NCBI GenBank assembly: GCA_003166475.1
Contig: PMVV01000430.1
Coordinates: 1-32,034 of the forward strand
Source: Bryobacterales bacterium
GTDB lineage: Bacteria > Acidobacteriota > Terriglobia > Bryobacterales > Bryobacteraceae
Reading direction: 5' to 3'
DNA length: 32,034 bases
This document shows positions 5,465-27,493 of this stretch, in pieces; within the stretch, counting starts at the first letter, position 1, and every line of letters begins with the position of its first letter. The notes beneath the pieces were generated by a model. The model was not told the origin of the DNA and did not search any database. It was given only the letters and a program-made list of their open reading frames with translations. The translations under genes were made by a program, and so were the position numbers.

Positions 5465-7789
5465 TTACACCGCGGGGCGCTTGGCCTTCCGCCGCCCTCC
5501 TGGCGGCCGGGGCGCGGGAGCCCTGCTGGCATAGAGTTGGCGATACACCGTTGCGTTTCTCAACACCGCTTCCACGTATTCGCGTGTTTCGGTGAAGGGG
5601 ATGGATTCCACAAATTCGGCGGGTTCCTGGTACTGGTTCCAGGTGATCCACTCATTGACGCGGGATTTGCCCGCATTGTAGGAAGCCAGGGTCTGTTCCC
5701 ATTTGCCACCCCATTGATCGAGCAGGGCGCGCAGGTAAGAAGCGCCGAGCGTCAGGTTGATGGCGGGTTGGAACAGGGATCGGTTGCTGAAACGCTTGAT
5801 CCCGGCGCGGCGGGCCAAGGCGCGCCCGGTGGCCGGCTCGACTTGAATCAGGCCGTAGGCGTGTTTGGCGGAGAGCGCCTGCGGATCGAATTCGGACTCC
5901 TGCCGGACGATGGCGGCAACCATGTAGGGATCCAGGCTTTGCTGTTTGGCGCTGCGCACGAGGTCCTTCTCATAGGGCAAGGGGAACAGCAGTTGCCAGA
6001 ATGCGGGCGGCGCATCCTCGAGAGAGAGCGAGAGATAGTCGGGCGCGGCGCTCTTGATGTTGTGCAACCGCTGGTGCGGCGTACTGGCGGTGCGGGCGAG
6101 TTCCATGGCCAACAGATACGGCTGGCCGCTGCCAGGCTGGCCGCCATGGCGGACGCCGAAACGCAGTTCGGACTGGGCCAAATCCGGGAGCCCGGCGGAT
6201 TCCAGCAAGCGGGCTCGGGCGATGCGCAAAGCGGTTTCCGCATCCGGTTCGCTGGGAAGGGCGGGCCTGTGCGGCGGGAAGGCGATGGCGCGCAGGAACT
6301 GGGCCGTCTTCTCCGATGGAGCCGCAGACGCAATCTGCGGCTGGGCCATGCGCTCGCGGCCCAATATCCCGTAATAGTAGTTGGGAAACTGCGCCGCGAG
6401 CCTGGTATAGAAGGCTCGCGCGGCGGGGTAATCGATGTGATCGGGGCCGGCTTCGGCGAGGCGGCCCAGAAAATAAAGCGCGGCGGTGGCGGAGGGATGT
6501 CCGGGGTATCGTTCCAGGTGCTCGCGCAGCAGTTCGCGCGCGTCGTGCCGGCGGCGAATGTACGCGGCCCAGGCGACGCGCCAGTGGCTTGATGCGGCCA
6601 GCGGCTGATCCGGAAACGTCTCGTAGACGGCCTTGGAAAGCGGCACGTATTTTTCGGGCTGATTGGTCACCACGAATCGATTGGCGGCGGCCACCAGCGC
6701 CTTGTAGCGCCACGGCGATTCGCGGTGCTTGCCGAGTTTGCCGACCGCCTCCATCATCTGATCTTCGTCGTTCAGTTTACGGGCGCATTCGGCGAGGTAG
6801 TAGAGGCGCTCGGCCTCCGCCTCGGAATGGGCATCGCGATCGGAGAGTTCCAGCGAGCGCAGGTACGAATAAGCGGCAGCCACATCGCCGGCCAGGAACT
6901 CGGCGGCTCCCATTCCCACGCGGGCCTGGTCGCGCTCCGGGCCGCCGAGTTGCGGCACGAGGGCCTCGAACTCGGATCGCGCGCGCGTGTATTCGCGTTG
7001 GGCGAGCAGTTGGTTGCCGCGCTCGACCATAGCTTCGGGCGCGTGCGCGGGATACGCCGCTCCCATGGCGTCGCGCAGGGCGATGAGCGCGGCGGCGGCG
7101 CGGGTGGCCGGATCGCCGGTGGGGTACTCGAAGTAGACCCGCTGATAGTATTGCGCGGCGTGCGGCAGGTCGCGGGCGGCTTGGTAGGCGACGGCCAGGG
7201 CAAGGTCGCCATCGGGCTGCGGAAGATCGGCGTAGCGCTCGCGGAGCAGGCGCACGGCATCGGAGGCGGCACCCGAAGCCGCCAGACCGCGCGCCTGCAG
7301 TACCATGGATTTCGCGGCGAACGGGGATAGCAGCGGGACGGACCGCACGGCGGCCGATTCGCGCGCGGCGGCGGCATAGTCTTGGGTTTCCGAATGGGCG
7401 GCAGCCAGATAATAGGCCGTGTAGTCGGCCAGCTTGGGGAGGCGCGGCTGGGCGGCTTGGAGATGCTGAATGGCATCCGGGAAGCGCTTCTGTTCGAACG
7501 AGACGATGCCCAGGGTGAAGTGCGCCAATGCGCCGTTGGCATCTTTGTGACTGGCCGCGAAGTACTGCAGGGCTTTGGCGCGGGCGGGGGTGGGCGAGTC
7601 GCGGTAGGCGTGGGCTAGGGAGTCGGGGGTTTGGGGGAAGGCGGCTGCGGCGAGGAGCACACCACAGGCTAAAGCCTGTGCCACCTTCTTCCAGCAGGCG
7701 GCCTGAGAGGCCGCTGCAGGCCGGGGGCCTGCCCCACAACTACGCCAAACGTCCAGGGTAGTTACCTCCCAGCCAGGCTGGATTATCAT
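5465..7789 (-). CDS. Soluble lytic murein transglycosylase (Slt70-like)
   Basis: Slt-type enzymes cleave the MurNAc-GlcNAc bond of peptidoglycan in the periplasm, leaving 1,6-anhydromuropeptides. The longest reading frame gives 774 residues: a long helical-repeat superhelix to about residue 590, then a lysozyme-fold domain at about 605-755. The catalytic glutamate is E631 in RQESEFDP; YGLIQVEPATG and ASYNAG are the other family motifs. The start is uncertain. ATG 7789 overlaps the upstream gene by 50 bases; GTG codons at 7684 and 7660 are alternatives. The N-terminus before AAAAFPQTP is made almost entirely of two palindromic repeats (7697-7737 and 7663-7680) read in frame, so the export signal is partly repeat-derived. 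Confidence 0.9.
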   Translation of the reverse strand: MIIQPGWEVTTLDVWRSCGAGPRPAAASQAACWKKVAQALACGVLLAAAAFPQTPDSLAHAYRDSPTPARAKALQYFAASHKDANGALAHFTLGIVSFEQKRFPDAIQHLQAAQPRLPKLADYTAYYLAAAHSETQDYAAAARESAAVRSVPLLSPFAAKSMVLQARGLAASGAASDAVRLLRERYADLPQPDGDLALAVAYQAARDLPHAAQYYQRVYFEYPTGDPATRAAAALIALRDAMGAAYPAHAPEAMVERGNQLLAQREYTRARSEFEALVPQLGGPERDQARVGMGAAEFLAGDVAAAYSYLRSLELSDRDAHSEAEAERLYYLAECARKLNDEDQMMEAVGKLGKHRESPWRYKALVAAANRFVVTNQPEKYVPLSKAVYETFPDQPLAASSHWRVAWAAYIRRRHDARELLREHLERYPGHPSATAALYFLGRLAEAGPDHIDYPAARAFYTRLAAQFPNYYYGILGRERMAQPQIASAAPSEKTAQFLRAIAFPPHRPALPSEPDAETALRIARARLLESAGLPDLAQSELRFGVRHGGQPGSGQPYLLAMELARTASTPHQRLHNIKSAAPDYLSLSLEDAPPAFWQLLFPLPYEKDLVRSAKQQSLDPYMVAAIVRQESEFDPQALSAKHAYGLIQVEPATGRALARRAGIKRFSNRSLFQPAINLTLGASYLRALLDQWGGKWEQTLASYNAGKSRVNEWITWNQYQEPAEFVESIPFTETREYVEAVLRNATVYRQLYASRAPAPRPPGGRRKAKRPAV
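7663..7680. repeat. Palindrome CACAGGCT-AA-AGCCTGTG inside slt
   Basis: A perfect 8-bp stem with an AA loop, with the same core (GGCTAAAGCC) as the hairpin at 19132-19149. It lies in the slt reading frame, encoding part of the predicted signal peptide (AQALACG). Confidence 0.8.
7697..7737 (-). repeat. Twin-hairpin element inside the slt 5' region
   Basis: This 41-bp element has two adjacent stem-loops on the plus strand: GGCGGCCT/AGGCCGCT around a GAG loop, and GCAGGCC/GGCCTGC around GGG, followed by CCCAC. It is homologous to 13387-13427 and 12043-12083. Read on the minus strand it begins GTGGGGCAGG and encodes GAGPRPAAASQAA in the slt frame. Confidence 0.85.
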
Positions 7790-8681
7790 TTGCCAGCGTG
7801 CGCACCAACTCCAGATGAAAGTAGTCGACCATGGTTGGACTGGCCGTTAGAAAGGTTTGCCGGAAAGACTCTCTGCCTTCATCGATGGCATCCTGCAAGG
7901 CGGCGTACAATTCCTGCTGCGCCCGCCCGGCTTTGACGGCATCGGGCCGGTACAGCCGTATCTCGGCGACCTTCACACGGGCGAAGCGTTGTGCGCGCAG
8001 ATGCAGATGGCGATCGGCCGGGCTCAGATCGTCCCATTCCGGTGCGGGACCGGCGGGCGCGGCGGAAGCCGGTTCGATGCGCACCAAATGGCGGGAGGGC
8101 GCCGCGGGGCGTTGCCGCGCTTCCATGACGGCGGCAGCGGCCTGGGCCAACAACTCCAAAGCGGCGCTCTCGACCGCGCCGGAGGCGTAGAGCATGCCGA
8201 CCGTGGATCGATCGACGGTCAACGGGAACAGGTACGCTTTATCGCCAGGCGCGTGGGCGAACGCTTGCGCCACGGCGGGCGATACCTCCGCGGCGGAACA
8301 GAGCGCCACCACCGGCTCGCGCGATTCGATGGCGGCGGCAAAGGCGGCGGCTTCGGATGTGGCAAAGCGGATCTCGCGAAAGTGCGCGGCGGCATCGCCG
8401 GTGGCGCCGCGCAGGCGCTCTCCACCCACCGTATCCTCATTGATGTGAAAGACGGCGCAAGCGTTGGCGAAGGGGGCGGAGGCATCCGAGAGGATGGAGG
8501 CAACCTCGGGGAAGGCGGCAGCCTGGCGCAAGCGCCGCACGGACTGATTCAAATGTTCGGCCAGGGCCCGCTCGGCGGCTTGCACGCTGGTGGAGACGCG
8601 CGCTTCCGTTTCCGATTGGAACAACTGTTCCAGTTCGGAGAATAAGCTTCGCAAGGAGGGCGAGGGCGCGGCAGTGGACAT
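7740..8681 (-). CDS. GAF-like domain protein, function unknown
   Basis: The product is 313 residues with no signal peptide, so it is probably cytoplasmic. Residues 10-50 look like a coiled coil (LFSELEQLFQSETEARV and following). Residues 50-180 resemble a degenerate GAF fold, with blocks such as ACAVFHINEDTVGGERLRG and KAYLFPLTVDRSTVGMLY. After an A/P-rich linker the C-terminal 90 residues contain AQRFARVKVAEIRLYRPDAV and end DYFHLELVRTLANDNPAWLG; I recall similar tails in acidobacterial hypothetical proteins. It lies directly upstream of, and probably is co-transcribed with, the lytic transglycosylase. No ligand or partner can be named. Confidence 0.75.
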   Translation of the reverse strand: MSTAAPSPSLRSLFSELEQLFQSETEARVSTSVQAAERALAEHLNQSVRRLRQAAAFPEVASILSDASAPFANACAVFHINEDTVGGERLRGATGDAAAHFREIRFATSEAAAFAAAIESREPVVALCSAAEVSPAVAQAFAHAPGDKAYLFPLTVDRSTVGMLYASGAVESAALELLAQAAAAVMEARQRPAAPSRHLVRIEPASAAPAGPAPEWDDLSPADRHLHLRAQRFARVKVAEIRLYRPDAVKAGRAQQELYAALQDAIDEGRESFRQTFLTASPTMVDYFHLELVRTLANDNPAWLGGNYPGRLA

Positions 8682-8994
8682 CCTGGAACGATTCTAGCAA
8701 GCCGGGGGGCGGGGAGTAGAGTGGAACCACGGATGGACACAGATGCACACGGATAAAGGCCATAGGCTGTGCTTTGGAGGGACGGCCGCCGTCGATCAGA
8801 GGATGATCCAGAGAATTCGGGGTCAGTTGAAACGTTTTAGGGAGGTTGAATCACTATGCAACGTAGAGGGGCTCCAGGTTTGAGAAGGGGACGGATGCGG
8901 GGGTGTCCCTTTTCGTTCGATTTATCCGCTTTACAGAAACAGAGGGCTGACGATTCGCTTATAGAGCACCAAAACCTCGGGGGGAGCAAAAGAC
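8682..8994. other. Intergenic region upstream of the TIR gene
   Basis: This 313-base gap separates divergent genes. It contains a low-complexity segment around 8727-8757 (ACCACGGATGGACACAGAT), of a kind I recall dispersed in several bacterial genomes. A possible 54-codon frame starts at ATG 8856 behind GGGAGG and overlaps the TIR start, but its composition is not protein-like. TTGAAA at 8827-8832 is a possible -35 without a convincing -10. The TIR gene has a good ribosome binding site, GGGGGGAG, at about 8979-8986. Confidence 0.4.
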
Positions 8995-9825
8995 GTGGCG
9001 GACGCGATGCTGGCATCTGATAAAAAGTTCGATTTCTTCCTTGCACATGCCGCGAAGGACCGCGCGAGAGCGGAGGAACTGTATGAGTTGTTGCAGCCTA
9101 AATCGAGAGTTTTCCTCGACGTCAGGACGCTCTCCGACGGCACGGAATGGGACCGCCAGATTCCCGAAGCCCAACGGAGTTCCTCGATAACCGTCGTACT
9201 GGTTTCCGCCCATTCGGCTGACGCTTATTACCAGCGCGAAGAGGTGGCTACAGCGGTTGAGCTCAGTCGTTTCGACAGGAGCGGACACGGCGTCGTGCCG
9301 GTGTACCTGGACGGGATCCCAACCGTCCGTGACTGGAATTTCTATGGGCTGCGGATCAGGCAAGGAATCGACGCCCTTCGAGTCGGGGGACTGCCGCGGG
9401 TGGCTGAGCAACTGCTTGGCGTCCTCGGCGGCGAGGAATTGCGGCCGCCGGAATCCCAACACCCTCTCCACTTGTTCCCCAGGGGGCCCCTTGTGGAAGA
9501 GTACTACGTGCCATCAAGTCTAATTCAGGCGTACTGGAAGCGATATCAGAATTTGTTGCAATCGCTTGCCGTGATCGCCGATGCCAACGCCTTCCGGCGG
9601 GAGGCCGATCCCATTGACGCGTCGGTGACTTTTATAGACACAGGTGCGCTCCCGCAAGGACCGCAAGCGGCGCCCGCCGACTTCTGGTATGGCGCCTTCA
9701 CGGAAGCTCGCTTGAATTCGCCACGCATGCTCGCCGCACTGGTGCTCGTGGTGCCGGACGGAGGCTTTACCAAGGACGTACAACTGAAACGGGAGAAGCT
9801 TCTCGATGAACTGAGCAACATGTAG
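8995..9825 (+). CDS. TIR-like domain protein with unknown C-terminal domain
   Basis: TIR domains in bacteria are mostly NAD-consuming or signal-producing enzymes, often in phage defence, and some are scaffolds. Residues 11-130 fit the fold: strand A KFDFFLAHAAKDR, then VFLDVRTLSDGTEWDRQI, ITVVLVSAHSADAYYQREE and VVPVYLDG. E82 or E83 in YYQREE lies where the catalytic glutamate is expected. Residues 150-276 form a second, unrecognised domain that includes VPSSLIQAYWKRYQNLL and MLAALVLVVPDGG. The start is GTG 8995 behind GGGGGGAG; ATG 9007 is an alternative. It lies 38 bases before a gene for a secreted or membrane-anchored protein, with which it probably forms an operon. No known defence gene is adjacent. 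Confidence 0.75.
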   Translation: MADAMLASDKKFDFFLAHAAKDRARAEELYELLQPKSRVFLDVRTLSDGTEWDRQIPEAQRSSSITVVLVSAHSADAYYQREEVATAVELSRFDRSGHGVVPVYLDGIPTVRDWNFYGLRIRQGIDALRVGGLPRVAEQLLGVLGGEELRPPESQHPLHLFPRGPLVEEYYVPSSLIQAYWKRYQNLLQSLAVIADANAFRREADPIDASVTFIDTGALPQGPQAAPADFWYGAFTEARLNSPRMLAALVLVVPDGGFTKDVQLKREKLLDELSNM

Positions 9826-9863
9826 TTTTGAGGATTTGAATGGAAACAAAAGGAGATTGAATT

Positions 9864-11843
9864 ATGAAACGCAAAACGCTTATCTCGGTCATGGCGGCGC
9901 TCATCCTGCTCGTCGCGATCTCGATTGGGTGGGGCCAGGCCTTACATCCTTCCATCGGCGCCGAAGAGGGAAAAGCCTTAAGCATGATTGCCAAGTACGC
10001 TGGGAGTCACTCGGGTTGGCTGGATCGCCAGCTTGAGAGTCACCGTTTTCAACCGGGCCTGCCGCCCGACATCTGGCACCCGTTCCCGGCGGTCCGAAAA
10101 CTCGAAGGCTTTTATCTTGCCGCGCAGGCAGGTGGAACCGGCGGCGGCGACAAGGCGCTGGCACTATTGGCACGCGATTTGGCCCAGCAGTATGAGTCGG
10201 TAAAGTACGACCCGGCCTTGAAGCGCTATTTCGGCGATCGCCAAGCGGCCGGTCCTCTGGCCTTTGGCAAACCAGCCTCTACCGCCAAACTGGAATGGAG
10301 GGCAAGTCCGGAAGCTGGGAAGGCTATGTTGGCCATAGGTAAGTACTGTGACGGCGGCACAATGGGTGGAGCGCAAGGCATTCTGCAGCATTACCTCGAT
10401 CTGCCCCCGGAAACCGCGTTCGAGATCTTGAGGACCAGCAACAGCAGCGCGAACGCTATCCAGCAGGCGATGAACTGGGTCCCCGAGCAGGAGCGCGCTC
10501 CAAAAATACGAACAATTGTCAGCACGCTCCAAGAGTCTTATGAGAGCGCGCGCTATGAGGAAGCGTTTGTCCCGTTCTCCGACCGGCACGAGTGGGCTCC
10601 CAGGGAGCGCCGGCCCGCCGTGACGGAAGCGGCTCGGGATGGCGTCAATTACAACGAGTACTTGGAAAGCAACCACCTCAAGGAGGCTGGTGCCCGTAAA
10701 TTTGACTCGCTGAAAGTGGACCCGGAAACATTTGGCGGAGTCGTGCTCGGCAATCGCGTGACGCCGGAGTTGCCCGGTAAGGTTGAGGTCATTACGTGGC
10801 TTCCCGATGCAGACAATTCGTCGACGGGCAGACTAATCGCCCAGTTCGTGGATGGCACGGAAAAGGAATATGCGCCAGTTCTTCGAGAGGACGCCTATGC
10901 CGCGCATCAAATTGTGTACGCTGGAGTGCGTGGAGCGGGGCCAATCGCAGAAGGAGAGGGCGTTGGTCTTATCGGTTCTTTCGGCGAGGTTCCATACTTT
11001 GAAATCGGTGCTACTCGAATACAGCATGAAGGAATTCGCTCGCGCATTGTGATGCATCCGGCCATCGCGGACCTGGACCTCGGATGGTCCCTCATGCTTG
11101 CCGACGTGCTCCCGAGGCAACATGCCCGGTTTTCCAGCCTTCTGGGGAGCGCGGAGAACGCCGCGAAGCTGGACGCAACGGGCTGGCGGCCGGAGATGGA
11201 CGGCTGGAAATTCACGGATGTCCCGCTGACCATCTCGGGGCAAGGGGGGCGGCTGATCGTGGAACGGCAAGGCGGCCAATTCCCGGAGGATCTGCGACGA
11301 AGCGCTTTTTTCACTTTGACGGCCTTCTCGGCCTATGGCGGGAAAGCGCGGACGACCTTCCCGGATGTGTTTTACCCATTGGTTCCCGAGTTGACGCACA
11401 CCTCGCATGAGTACGATAGGCTCAACAGGTTTGCCGCCGTGCTCGCGATCTTTCGCTGGGCGAAGGCGTCCGGGGCGGGGAGTATCGGTCGCTTTAATGT
11501 CATTTCAAAGGTGCCCACGCCAGCTTCAATCGTGCTCACCGAGAAGGAATACCTGCCGATGCCGGATTATGAAGAAGCCCAAGCCCGCCAGGCATTGCGC
11601 GCTGCGGTTGAACGGAAACTCCGCGAAGAGTATGCCGCGCTGCCCGAAAGTATGCGCAAGCAGATTCGAGACTGCGATTCCGAACTGCAGAGGCTCGAGG
11701 GTCTCTACGAGGAGGAAAAAGATCCAGGCAAGGAAGCCGGGCTAATCAAGGAACTGATGCGGGTCAGCTCGCAGCGAGCCGATCTGCTAGGCAAGGCCCC
11801 CCGCATAAGGTACTGGAAAAAAGTTCTCGCCGAAAAAACCTAG
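9864..11843 (+). CDS. Large exported or membrane-anchored protein, function unknown
   Basis: I do not recognise this family. The 659-residue product starts MKRKTLISVMAALILLVAIS, a basic start plus one hydrophobic helix, so it is exported or N-terminally anchored. The rest is soluble-looking. Residues 20-230 are mostly helical; 270-400 contain a beta-rich stretch with FGGVVLGNRVTPELPGKVEV and GEGVGLIGSFGEVPYFEIG; residues 555-655 form a charged coiled coil (AVERKLREEYAALPESMRKQ and following). The ATG at 9864 is supported by AAGGAG at 9850-9855. It follows the TIR gene by 38 bases, so a joint role is likely but unproven. Its end abuts a minus-strand TIGR03437-like gene fragment. Confidence 0.75.
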   Translation: MKRKTLISVMAALILLVAISIGWGQALHPSIGAEEGKALSMIAKYAGSHSGWLDRQLESHRFQPGLPPDIWHPFPAVRKLEGFYLAAQAGGTGGGDKALALLARDLAQQYESVKYDPALKRYFGDRQAAGPLAFGKPASTAKLEWRASPEAGKAMLAIGKYCDGGTMGGAQGILQHYLDLPPETAFEILRTSNSSANAIQQAMNWVPEQERAPKIRTIVSTLQESYESARYEEAFVPFSDRHEWAPRERRPAVTEAARDGVNYNEYLESNHLKEAGARKFDSLKVDPETFGGVVLGNRVTPELPGKVEVITWLPDADNSSTGRLIAQFVDGTEKEYAPVLREDAYAAHQIVYAGVRGAGPIAEGEGVGLIGSFGEVPYFEIGATRIQHEGIRSRIVMHPAIADLDLGWSLMLADVLPRQHARFSSLLGSAENAAKLDATGWRPEMDGWKFTDVPLTISGQGGRLIVERQGGQFPEDLRRSAFFTLTAFSAYGGKARTTFPDVFYPLVPELTHTSHEYDRLNRFAAVLAIFRWAKASGAGSIGRFNVISKVPTPASIVLTEKEYLPMPDYEEAQARQALRAAVERKLREEYAALPESMRKQIRDCDSELQRLEGLYEEEKDPGKEAGLIKELMRVSSQRADLLGKAPRIRYWKKVLAEKT

Positions 11844-11849
11844 TAAACC

Positions 11850-12008
11850 GTTGCCGGCCAGGGTGACAGTCACCGGTTGATTGCCGGTGGGCGTACCTGG
11901 CGGGACGATGAAGTTGACCTGGGTGACTCCTGCCAGGTAATAGGGAATGCCGGCAAACGAGTTCTCGGCTGCGACGCCATTGACTAAGACCGTCACATTG
12001 GCTGATAA
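11850..12008 (-). pseudogene. Orphan TIGR03437-like (Solibacter C-terminal domain) fragment
   Basis: The minus strand encodes about 53 residues, including VTVLVNGVAAENSF, YYLAGVTQVNFIVPPGTPTG and QPVTVTLAGN. These match the pattern of the TIGR03437 C-terminal domain found on many large secreted proteins of Solibacter-like acidobacteria (GLYQVNVQVPAGVPTG in typical members, from memory). In-frame stops lie upstream (TGA near 12019) and no protein body precedes it. It is the stranded 3' end of a deleted gene. It is also the strongest taxonomic marker in the window. Confidence 0.65.
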
Positions 12009-12042: not shown

Positions 12043-12083
12043 GGCGGCCTGAGCGGCCGCCGCAGGCTGAGAGCCTGCCCCAC
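12043..12083 (-). repeat. Twin-hairpin element between unknown gene and NUDIX gene
   Basis: Same 41-bp layout as 13387-13427: GGCGGCCT/CGGCCGCC around GAG (the closing pair is mismatched) and GCAGGCT/AGCCTGC around GAG, then CCCAC. It lies downstream of the NUDIX gene and could end transcription from that side, although no T-run follows. Confidence 0.85.
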
Positions 12084-12110
12084 GAACATTGAGTGTGTCA
12101 AAAGGACTCG

Positions 12111-12551: not shown

Positions 12552-13434
12552 TGGAGAGGAGGGGCGGCCTGACTCGATACAAGGATGTTCTGGCAGTGAC
12601 GTAGAGCGTCTGGAAATCGGGGTCTGCAAAGGCGAAATTGGAGGGCGTCTCGGCGAGCGGGATGGTCGTCAGCAGTTGGCCTTCCGGGCTGTAGACGGCG
12701 ATGCCTTTGGCGGCGACGTACAGATTGCCCTTATCGTCGGTGCGGATGCCGGCTGGAATGCCGTCGATCTTGGAAATTGCAACGCGCTCATTGGAGACTT
12801 CGCCCTCGTGGTCCACGTCGTAAGCGCGGATGTTGCGGTCGTCGGAGTTGGCGACGTAGAGAATGCGCCCGTTGGGCGACAGCGCGATTCCATGGGGGCG
12901 GCCGGCGGGCCTGGCGATCACGGACAACTGGCCTTTTGGCGCGATGTGGTAGACGCCGTAAAAATCGAGCTCACGCGTATCCTGCTGGCTGCCGAACGCC
13001 GGATCGGTGAAGTAGACATGGCCGGACTTGCTCACGACGATGCCGTTGGGCGCGTTGAGCCGCTTGCCGTCCCATTTATCGGCCAGCACTTCGATGCGGC
13101 CCTTTTTGTCGGTGCGGGTCACGCGGCGGGTGTGCGTTTCGCAGGTGTACAAGCGGCCTTGCTGGTCGAAGGCGTTGCCGGCTGCGCCGTTGGAGGCTTC
13201 GCGGTAGACTTCGGTGGCTCCATCGGGCACGTGTTTCATGATTTTGCCGCGGGGGATGTCGCTGAACAGCAGGTAGCCATCGCGGGACCAGACGGGGCCT
13301 TCGGTGAAGCGGTAGCCGTGGGCTACTTTTTCGACTTGGAGATCGGGGACGTCTTGGGCGGCTAGGGGGAGCAGCAACAAGAAGAGGGCGGCCTGAGAGG
13401 CCGCCGCAGGCTGAGAGCCTGCCCCACGAATCAT
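12541..13434 (-). CDS. Exported SMP-30/gluconolactonase-like protein
   Basis: This six-bladed propeller family hydrolyses sugar lactones using one divalent metal. The 297-residue protein keeps the metal ligands: E45 in FTEGPVW, N130 in NAPNGIVV, N196 in LYVANSDD and D224 in IDGIPAGI. Residues 1-27 form a signal peptide (MIRGAGSQPAAASQAALFLL), implying a periplasmic or extracellular enzyme. The ATG at 13434 overlaps the BON stop as ATGA. Residues 4-16 are encoded by a palindromic element (13387-13427), so the region before the hydrophobic core is repeat-derived; no better start lies further inside. The substrate is unknown. Confidence 0.88.
   Translation of the reverse strand: MIRGAGSQPAAASQAALFLLLLPLAAQDVPDLQVEKVAHGYRFTEGPVWSRDGYLLFSDIPRGKIMKHVPDGATEVYREASNGAAGNAFDQQGRLYTCETHTRRVTRTDKKGRIEVLADKWDGKRLNAPNGIVVSKSGHVYFTDPAFGSQQDTRELDFYGVYHIAPKGQLSVIARPAGRPHGIALSPNGRILYVANSDDRNIRAYDVDHEGEVSNERVAISKIDGIPAGIRTDDKGNLYVAAKGIAVYSPEGQLLTTIPLAETPSNFAFADPDFQTLYVTARTSLYRVRPPLLSNAR
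13387..13427 (-). repeat. Twin-hairpin element inside the SMP-30 signal peptide
   Basis: Best-preserved copy: stem GGCGGCCT/AGGCCGCC around a GAG triloop, then stem GCAGGCT/AGCCTGC around a GAG triloop, then CCCAC. Both stems are perfect. It is read in frame on the minus strand as GAGSQPAAASQAA, the same frame and orientation as the copy in slt. Confidence 0.9.
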
Positions 13435-27447: not shown

Positions 27448-27493
27448 GGCGGCCCGTAGGGCCTCGAAGAGGCGGGCTGAGAGCCTGCCCCAC
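27448..27493 (-). repeat. Degenerate twin-hairpin element before the kinase gene
   Basis: GGCCC/GGGCC around GTA, then GCGGGCT/AGCCTGC around GAG (one G-T wobble), then CCCAC. It is related to 13387-13427 and follows the glycine-zipper gene, 37 bases before the histidine kinase ATG. Confidence 0.7.

Follow-up and report, generated by a model that had tools for sequence, protein, structure and literature searches.

Do a TIR-domain protein and the large exported protein encoded immediately downstream of it form a functional system, or do two unrelated genes happen to lie side by side? The question is raised by a 32,034-nucleotide stretch of Bryobacterales DNA (contig PMVV01000430.1; GC content 0.626), hereafter the window, from a 7.56-Mb assembly in 497 contigs whose host is a soil-type acidobacterium. 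A first-pass annotation, made from the letters alone, had ranked the pair as the window's best candidate for an undescribed system. We find no support for that ranking: the downstream partner has no detectable relative, and the pair was found in one genome only. The proposal to which we incline, at slightly better than even confidence, is that the locus would encode a stand-alone conflict effector of the TIR NADase type with a C-terminal tail, together with a probably co-transcribed orphan envelope protein.

RESULTS

Two credible genes, most likely co-transcribed

The coordinates of both genes, the 38 bases that separate them on the forward strand, and the 659-residue length and N-terminal hydrophobic segment of the second protein were exactly as first annotated (Table 1). 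In 300 first-order Markov sequences of the 3.3-kb stretch, the longest chance ORF reached 396 aa (median, 183 aa); thus, the partner ORF is not a chance product. Codon-usage scoring gave in-frame values of 0.105 (TIR gene) and 0.116 (partner gene), with antisense scores of -0.04 and -0.07 and about -0.44 in the +1 frame; these values are supportive rather than proof of coding, since the window is GC-rich and some ORFs antisense to its housekeeping genes have positive scores too. A plausible Shine-Dalgarno sequence, AAAGGAGA, can be read upstream of the partner ATG, as another can before the GTG of the TIR gene. ORF length, clean in-frame scores and these motifs together make both genes credible. 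Their shared strand and short spacing, the Shine-Dalgarno sequence before the partner and the lack of any promoter-like site above chance across the region fit co-transcription, which we consider most likely on this reading of the sequence.

Table 1. Features of the locus, with positions in the window
Feature	Positions	Strand	Basis or description
Shine-Dalgarno-like GGGGGGAG, upstream of TIR GTG	8979..8986	+	Direct reading of sequence
TIR-domain protein gene	8995..9825	+	276 aa, GTG start, Pfam TIR_2
Glu83 codon, candidate catalytic residue	9241..9243	+	Alignment with WxxxE, invariance
C-terminal region of TIR protein, residues 151-276	9445..9822	+	Mostly helical, no known family
Partner gene, orphan 659-aa protein	9864..11843	+	ATG start, ORF and coding signal
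Signal peptide or N-terminal anchor of partner, residues 1-28	9864..9947	+	Hydropathy 2.4
Truncated gene fragment, end of TIGR03437 (Solibacter C-terminal) domain	11787..11996	-	NCBIfam E=1e-9
Copy of ~45-bp palindrome-rich dispersed repeat GGCGGCCTGAGCGGCCGCCGCAGGCTGAGAGCCTGCCCCACGAAC	12043..12086	+	11 matches in 221 kb

The first protein is a likely NAD-cleaving TIR enzyme

The first-pass call of a TIR-like domain was borne out by three lines. Pfam TIR_2 matches residues 14 to 115 (E=2.9e-15) of a domain that spans residues ~9 to 150. An AlphaFold model built from a ten-sequence input, with pLDDT values of ~85 to 97 over most of the TIR core, has the TIR fold and not some other one: Foldseek returned 88 PDB matches at E<=0.001, the 50 listed being all TIR structures, with an E value of 2.5e-6 and a probability of 1.00 against such structures. 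A PDB profile search also backs the fold. Among the matches listed, the nearest structures were PdTIR, TcpB/BtpA and AbTir, with SARM1 and SPARTA lower down; AbTir, SARM1 and SPARTA are NADases.

Either Glu82 or Glu83 had been put forward as the catalytic residue. Only Glu83 stands: it is shared by all ten clade members compared and, in a profile alignment with solved structures, Y79-x-x-x-E83 aligns with the W-x-x-x-E of plant TIRs and BtpA/TcpB, whereas Glu82 is not conserved among the ten and was rejected. Position 79, usually Trp, is Tyr throughout the clade and equally invariant. The WxxxE glutamate is required in all enzymatic TIRs examined (PMC10022894). Together with the invariance and alignment of Glu83, this requirement makes NADase activity likely, and we infer that the protein is an NAD-cleaving enzyme. 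Relatives of the TIR protein were absent from viral contigs and phages.

A shuffled TIR domain with a probably lineage-specific tail

Scanning one genome per species (84,980 species) with degenerate patterns uncovered nine TIR relatives, 39-51% identical over the TIR region, three of which, along with more distant TIRs, were also met in a direct order-level search. TIR domains of this clade, at 36-52% identity, have the motifs FLDxRxLxxGxxWD and YYxREE in common. What they are joined to varies: NB-ARC plus TPR in a Gimesia protein (L044), a Cmr1-like RAMP plus SAVED in L041, and N- or C-terminal regions of no known family in L038-L040, L042 and L043. Such completely different second domains mark the TIR domain as a shuffled output module.

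The tail of the TIR protein, residues 151-276, had been annotated as a domain of no known family, which holds. It matched nothing in Pfam, PADLOC or plasmids, even at E<=10, nothing convincing in 396 genomes of the phylum or 100 genomes of another phylum, and no extra region of the TIR clade relatives; a second copy elsewhere in its own genome was not found at E<=0.01. One match, in L032, was rejected as antisense to an ABC-transporter ATPase. Structure prediction yielded a mainly helical tail, at low confidence (AlphaFold helices at 174-195, 228-237, 243-252 and 260-275). The best reading is that the tail is lineage-specific; by analogy with the rest of the clade, it may be a regulatory or adaptor region.

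Several further TIR loci were met in these searches. In L041 (positions 282-2573; WGAH01000921.1, Deltaproteobacteria MAG S143_5), a single unbroken ORF encodes a Cmr1-like RAMP (PADLOC, 2e-16), SAVED (Pfam, 4.8e-14) and TIR (1.3e-16), and the next ORF, which overlaps it by 4 bases, has a start that is by eye a candidate Cmr2/Cas10-like one. Judged from these domains, L041 would unite, in one fusion, a type III-B subunit with an NADase-type effector of its own that senses cyclic oligonucleotides. In known type III loci, TIR-SAVED is a separate effector (PMC11229360); Cmr1 is mentioned neither there nor in PMC9704534, and the Cmr1-SAVED-TIR fusion was not found in the literature searched. Although unrelated to the locus studied here, this fusion may exceed the TIR-partner pair in interest.

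In L045 (364-5751; uncultured Acidobacteriia, CAIRSA010000086.1), the gene for a TIR protein with two membrane segments overlaps genes for 279-aa and 999-aa (weak TPR) proteins, both with N-terminal export segments. The 999-aa protein is unrelated to our 659-aa partner. The three-gene layout of L045 makes TIR plus envelope protein a theme worth surveying, not a demonstrated system. L046 (5974-7041; Acidobacteria SZAS TMP-7) combines TIR and a GGDEF-type domain in one protein. In L042 (5995-8195; Zoogloea MAG), the gene for a 245-aa TIR protein of the clade and a 488-aa gene without Pfam or PADLOC family overlap by 4 bases, forming a further unplaced TIR gene pair.

The partner is a predicted exported orphan

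The membrane or export segment annotated at the N terminus of the partner was confirmed at residues 1-28. It is preceded by KRK and followed, by eye, by a candidate signal-peptidase site after GQA (residue 26), and the protein has no other membrane segment; the bulk of the partner should therefore lie outside the cytoplasm. A structure model from the single sequence was unusable (mean pLDDT, 41) apart from coiled-coil-like C-terminal helices (569-658), its sole confident part.

No family emerged from Pfam, PADLOC, NCBIfam (best, 0.39), PHROGs or PDB sequences (best, 0.26), and no relative from plasmids, phages or viral contigs. The scan of 84,980 species genomes, which for the partner used exact peptide patterns and so detects close relatives only, was likewise empty, as were ~1,000 genomes from three phyla: single-sequence searches covered 257 genomes of the order, 396 of the phylum, 246 from the phylum of the Gimesia locus and 96 from that of L041. 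A core fragment, searched in 179 genomes, gave no relative either. Upon translation, weak matches in L026, L089, L093, L099, L101 and L107 proved to be antisense readings or unrelated proteins, and those in L025, L047 and L119 had per-genome E values of 0.006-0.008, which is chance level over that many genomes. Within these searches the partner is thus an orphan, a family of size one as far as sequence comparison reaches; distant relatives beyond the sampled phyla are possible.

The predicted topology of the partner bears on whether the exported protein could act as a sensor, an envelope event such as phage adsorption, DNA entry or wall damage being relayed through its N-terminal membrane segment to the cytoplasmic TIR protein, which would then deplete NAD+ and stop the cell. 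The close same-strand spacing, an N-terminal anchor that is positive inside and would place the partner bulk outside, and the analogous layout of L045 are consistent with such coupling. It nonetheless seems rather improbable: the pair was found once only, the flanking DNA of nine distinct TIR relatives holds no partner homologue (0/9), the sole membrane segment resembles a cleavable signal peptide no less than an anchor, and no transmembrane signalling route was identified. The first-pass annotation had named a lack of co-occurrence as grounds for refutation; that the pair was seen nowhere else is in itself weak evidence, because the partner was found nowhere else.

Gene order changes at the locus

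A conserved gene (7740-8681) and a lytic transglycosylase gene lie to the left of the locus, and Nudix, SGL, CorC and PhoH genes lie to the right. The left-hand pair is kept together in 18 of 20 relatives. What lies to the right of 7740-8681 is arranged differently in all 20, which leaves no empty site to compare. The locus thus lies at a variable junction or synteny break. The stranded gene fragment that had been noticed at the right is real: it comprises profile positions 168-215 of 225, the last quarter of the TIGR03437 domain, and its homology ends ~6 bases from the partner stop codon, which is consistent with a recombination border.

Beyond it lies a copy of a genome-wide ~45-bp repeat, of which the window has three further copies (13387-13430, 7696-7737 and 27475-27493). 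This right-hand repeat is stronger than that of the left spacer, whose description as repeat-bearing is only weakly true: no repeat of >=14 nt lies inside the spacer, but the intergenic motif CCACGGATGGACACAGATGCACACGGATAAA (8725-8757), which has internal repeats, has one further match (34 bp, 94%) within 221 kb of this genome. Neither tRNA nor Rfam RNA was found in the window.

Base composition is unremarkable. GC contents are 0.593 (TIR gene) and 0.591 (partner gene) and GC3 values 0.69 and 0.67, both GC3 values lying at the 14th to 20th percentile of genome ORFs, and the codon usage of both genes is nearer the genome mean than that of most ORFs. Recent transfer was accordingly rejected as a reading of the compositional evidence, GC3 and codon usage being within the genome's normal spread; import in recent times from a compositionally different donor is unsupported. 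The evidence on the earlier suggestion of an acquired insertion is mixed: the synteny break, the truncated gene on the right and the scattered repeats speak for it, codon usage and GC3 against it.

These borders also speak to the alternative of accidental neighbours, an independent, fast-evolving exported protein beside a TIR gene that landed at a recombination-prone junction. Large acidobacterial genomes commonly carry exported orphan genes, and the alternative accords with a right-hand synteny that differs in every relative, a left pair that is mostly kept, and borders marked by the truncated TIGR03437 gene and by dispersed repeats. Against it stand the short same-strand spacing with no promoter-like site above chance between the genes, and their nearly identical GC and GC3. 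We regard mere adjacency as unlikely, if a serious contender. The wider surroundings are not those of a defence island, since the window genes that were scanned (EF-G, lytic transglycosylase, Nudix, SGL, CorC, PhoH, kinase etc.) included no recognisable defence gene.

DISCUSSION

The effector proposal that we favour would work as follows. The TIR enzyme, a member of a widespread, domain-shuffling clade, would cleave NAD+, or make an NAD-derived signal, through Glu83 once its own helical tail of ~126 residues is engaged, as the effector end of a response to conflict or stress. The partner, most likely co-transcribed, would be a lineage-restricted protein that resides in the periplasm or is held at the inner membrane's outer face. 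Joining of the clade TIR to the known sensor or signalling modules SAVED (L041), NB-ARC-TPR (L044) and GGDEF (L046), and to tails of no known family (L038, L042), counts in favour of this proposal; Tyr79, the lack of recognised defence genes in the window, the failure of the searches to return homologues of tail and partner, and the unrelated exported protein of L045 count against it. Regulation through the tail and a role of the TIR protein in defence are inferred.

A functional link between the two proteins is speculative, and we hold it rather unlikely that they work as a pair; the case for pairing is made by adjacency, the 38-base gap and the good Shine-Dalgarno sequence. More specific still, a lineage-restricted immune unit in which an envelope-anchored orphan senses phage or envelope injury outside and a cytoplasmic TIR NADase kills inside appears distinctly improbable. 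Envelope-sensed triggering of this kind is not described in the literature searched. If TIR protein and partner do cooperate, control of a TIR effector by the cell envelope would widen the known triggers of bacterial TIRs. As it stands, the locus contributes a further architecture to a TIR clade that shuffles its domains, along with one unplaced exported protein.

The layout had been thought unlike the common TIR systems, which is true in part. In Thoeris with a TM-macro ThsA, too, a TIR gene adjoins a gene for a membrane-attached effector (PMC11204291), and a TIR-derived nucleotide signal might by analogy activate our membrane-attached partner as a killer. The gene order resembles that of TM-macro Thoeris, and Pfam ThsB_TIR passes its cut-off (23.4 versus 21.2 bits); TIR_2 fits far better, however, and PADLOC ThsB reaches only 0.0015. 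Unlike ThsA, the partner has no macro, SIR2 or SLOG domain: Pfam, PADLOC and NCBIfam revealed no ThsA-type domain, sub-fragments being included for Pfam (E<=10) and PADLOC. Its single N-terminal export segment would moreover place the bulk of the protein outside, away from a cytoplasmic signal. A Thoeris-like pair is thus barely credible.

With conflict systems built on effector-associated domains (EADs) (PMC7159879), the locus shares an effector enzyme, a small helical domain and variable neighbours. It differs from them in that the tail has no Pfam match at E<=10 and no copy in the neighbouring gene; the TIR protein thus lacks a recognised EAD with a second copy next door.

The bacterial TIR NADases AbTir, BtpA/TcpB and PdTIR have in common with our protein the TIR fold, the position of the glutamate and the combination of TIR with a variable second region. 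Our protein differs in its helical tail of no known family and in Tyr for Trp in WxxxE, and its catalysis is a prediction. Closest are the fusions of its own clade (L041, L038, L044 and L046), which have the same TIR domain and the same two motifs. They carry SAVED, NB-ARC-TPR, GGDEF or other regions, none like the tail at 151-276 and none near a partner gene. The range of modules that this clade combines with one and the same TIR (SAVED, STAND, GGDEF and CRISPR subunits) makes it worth a survey.
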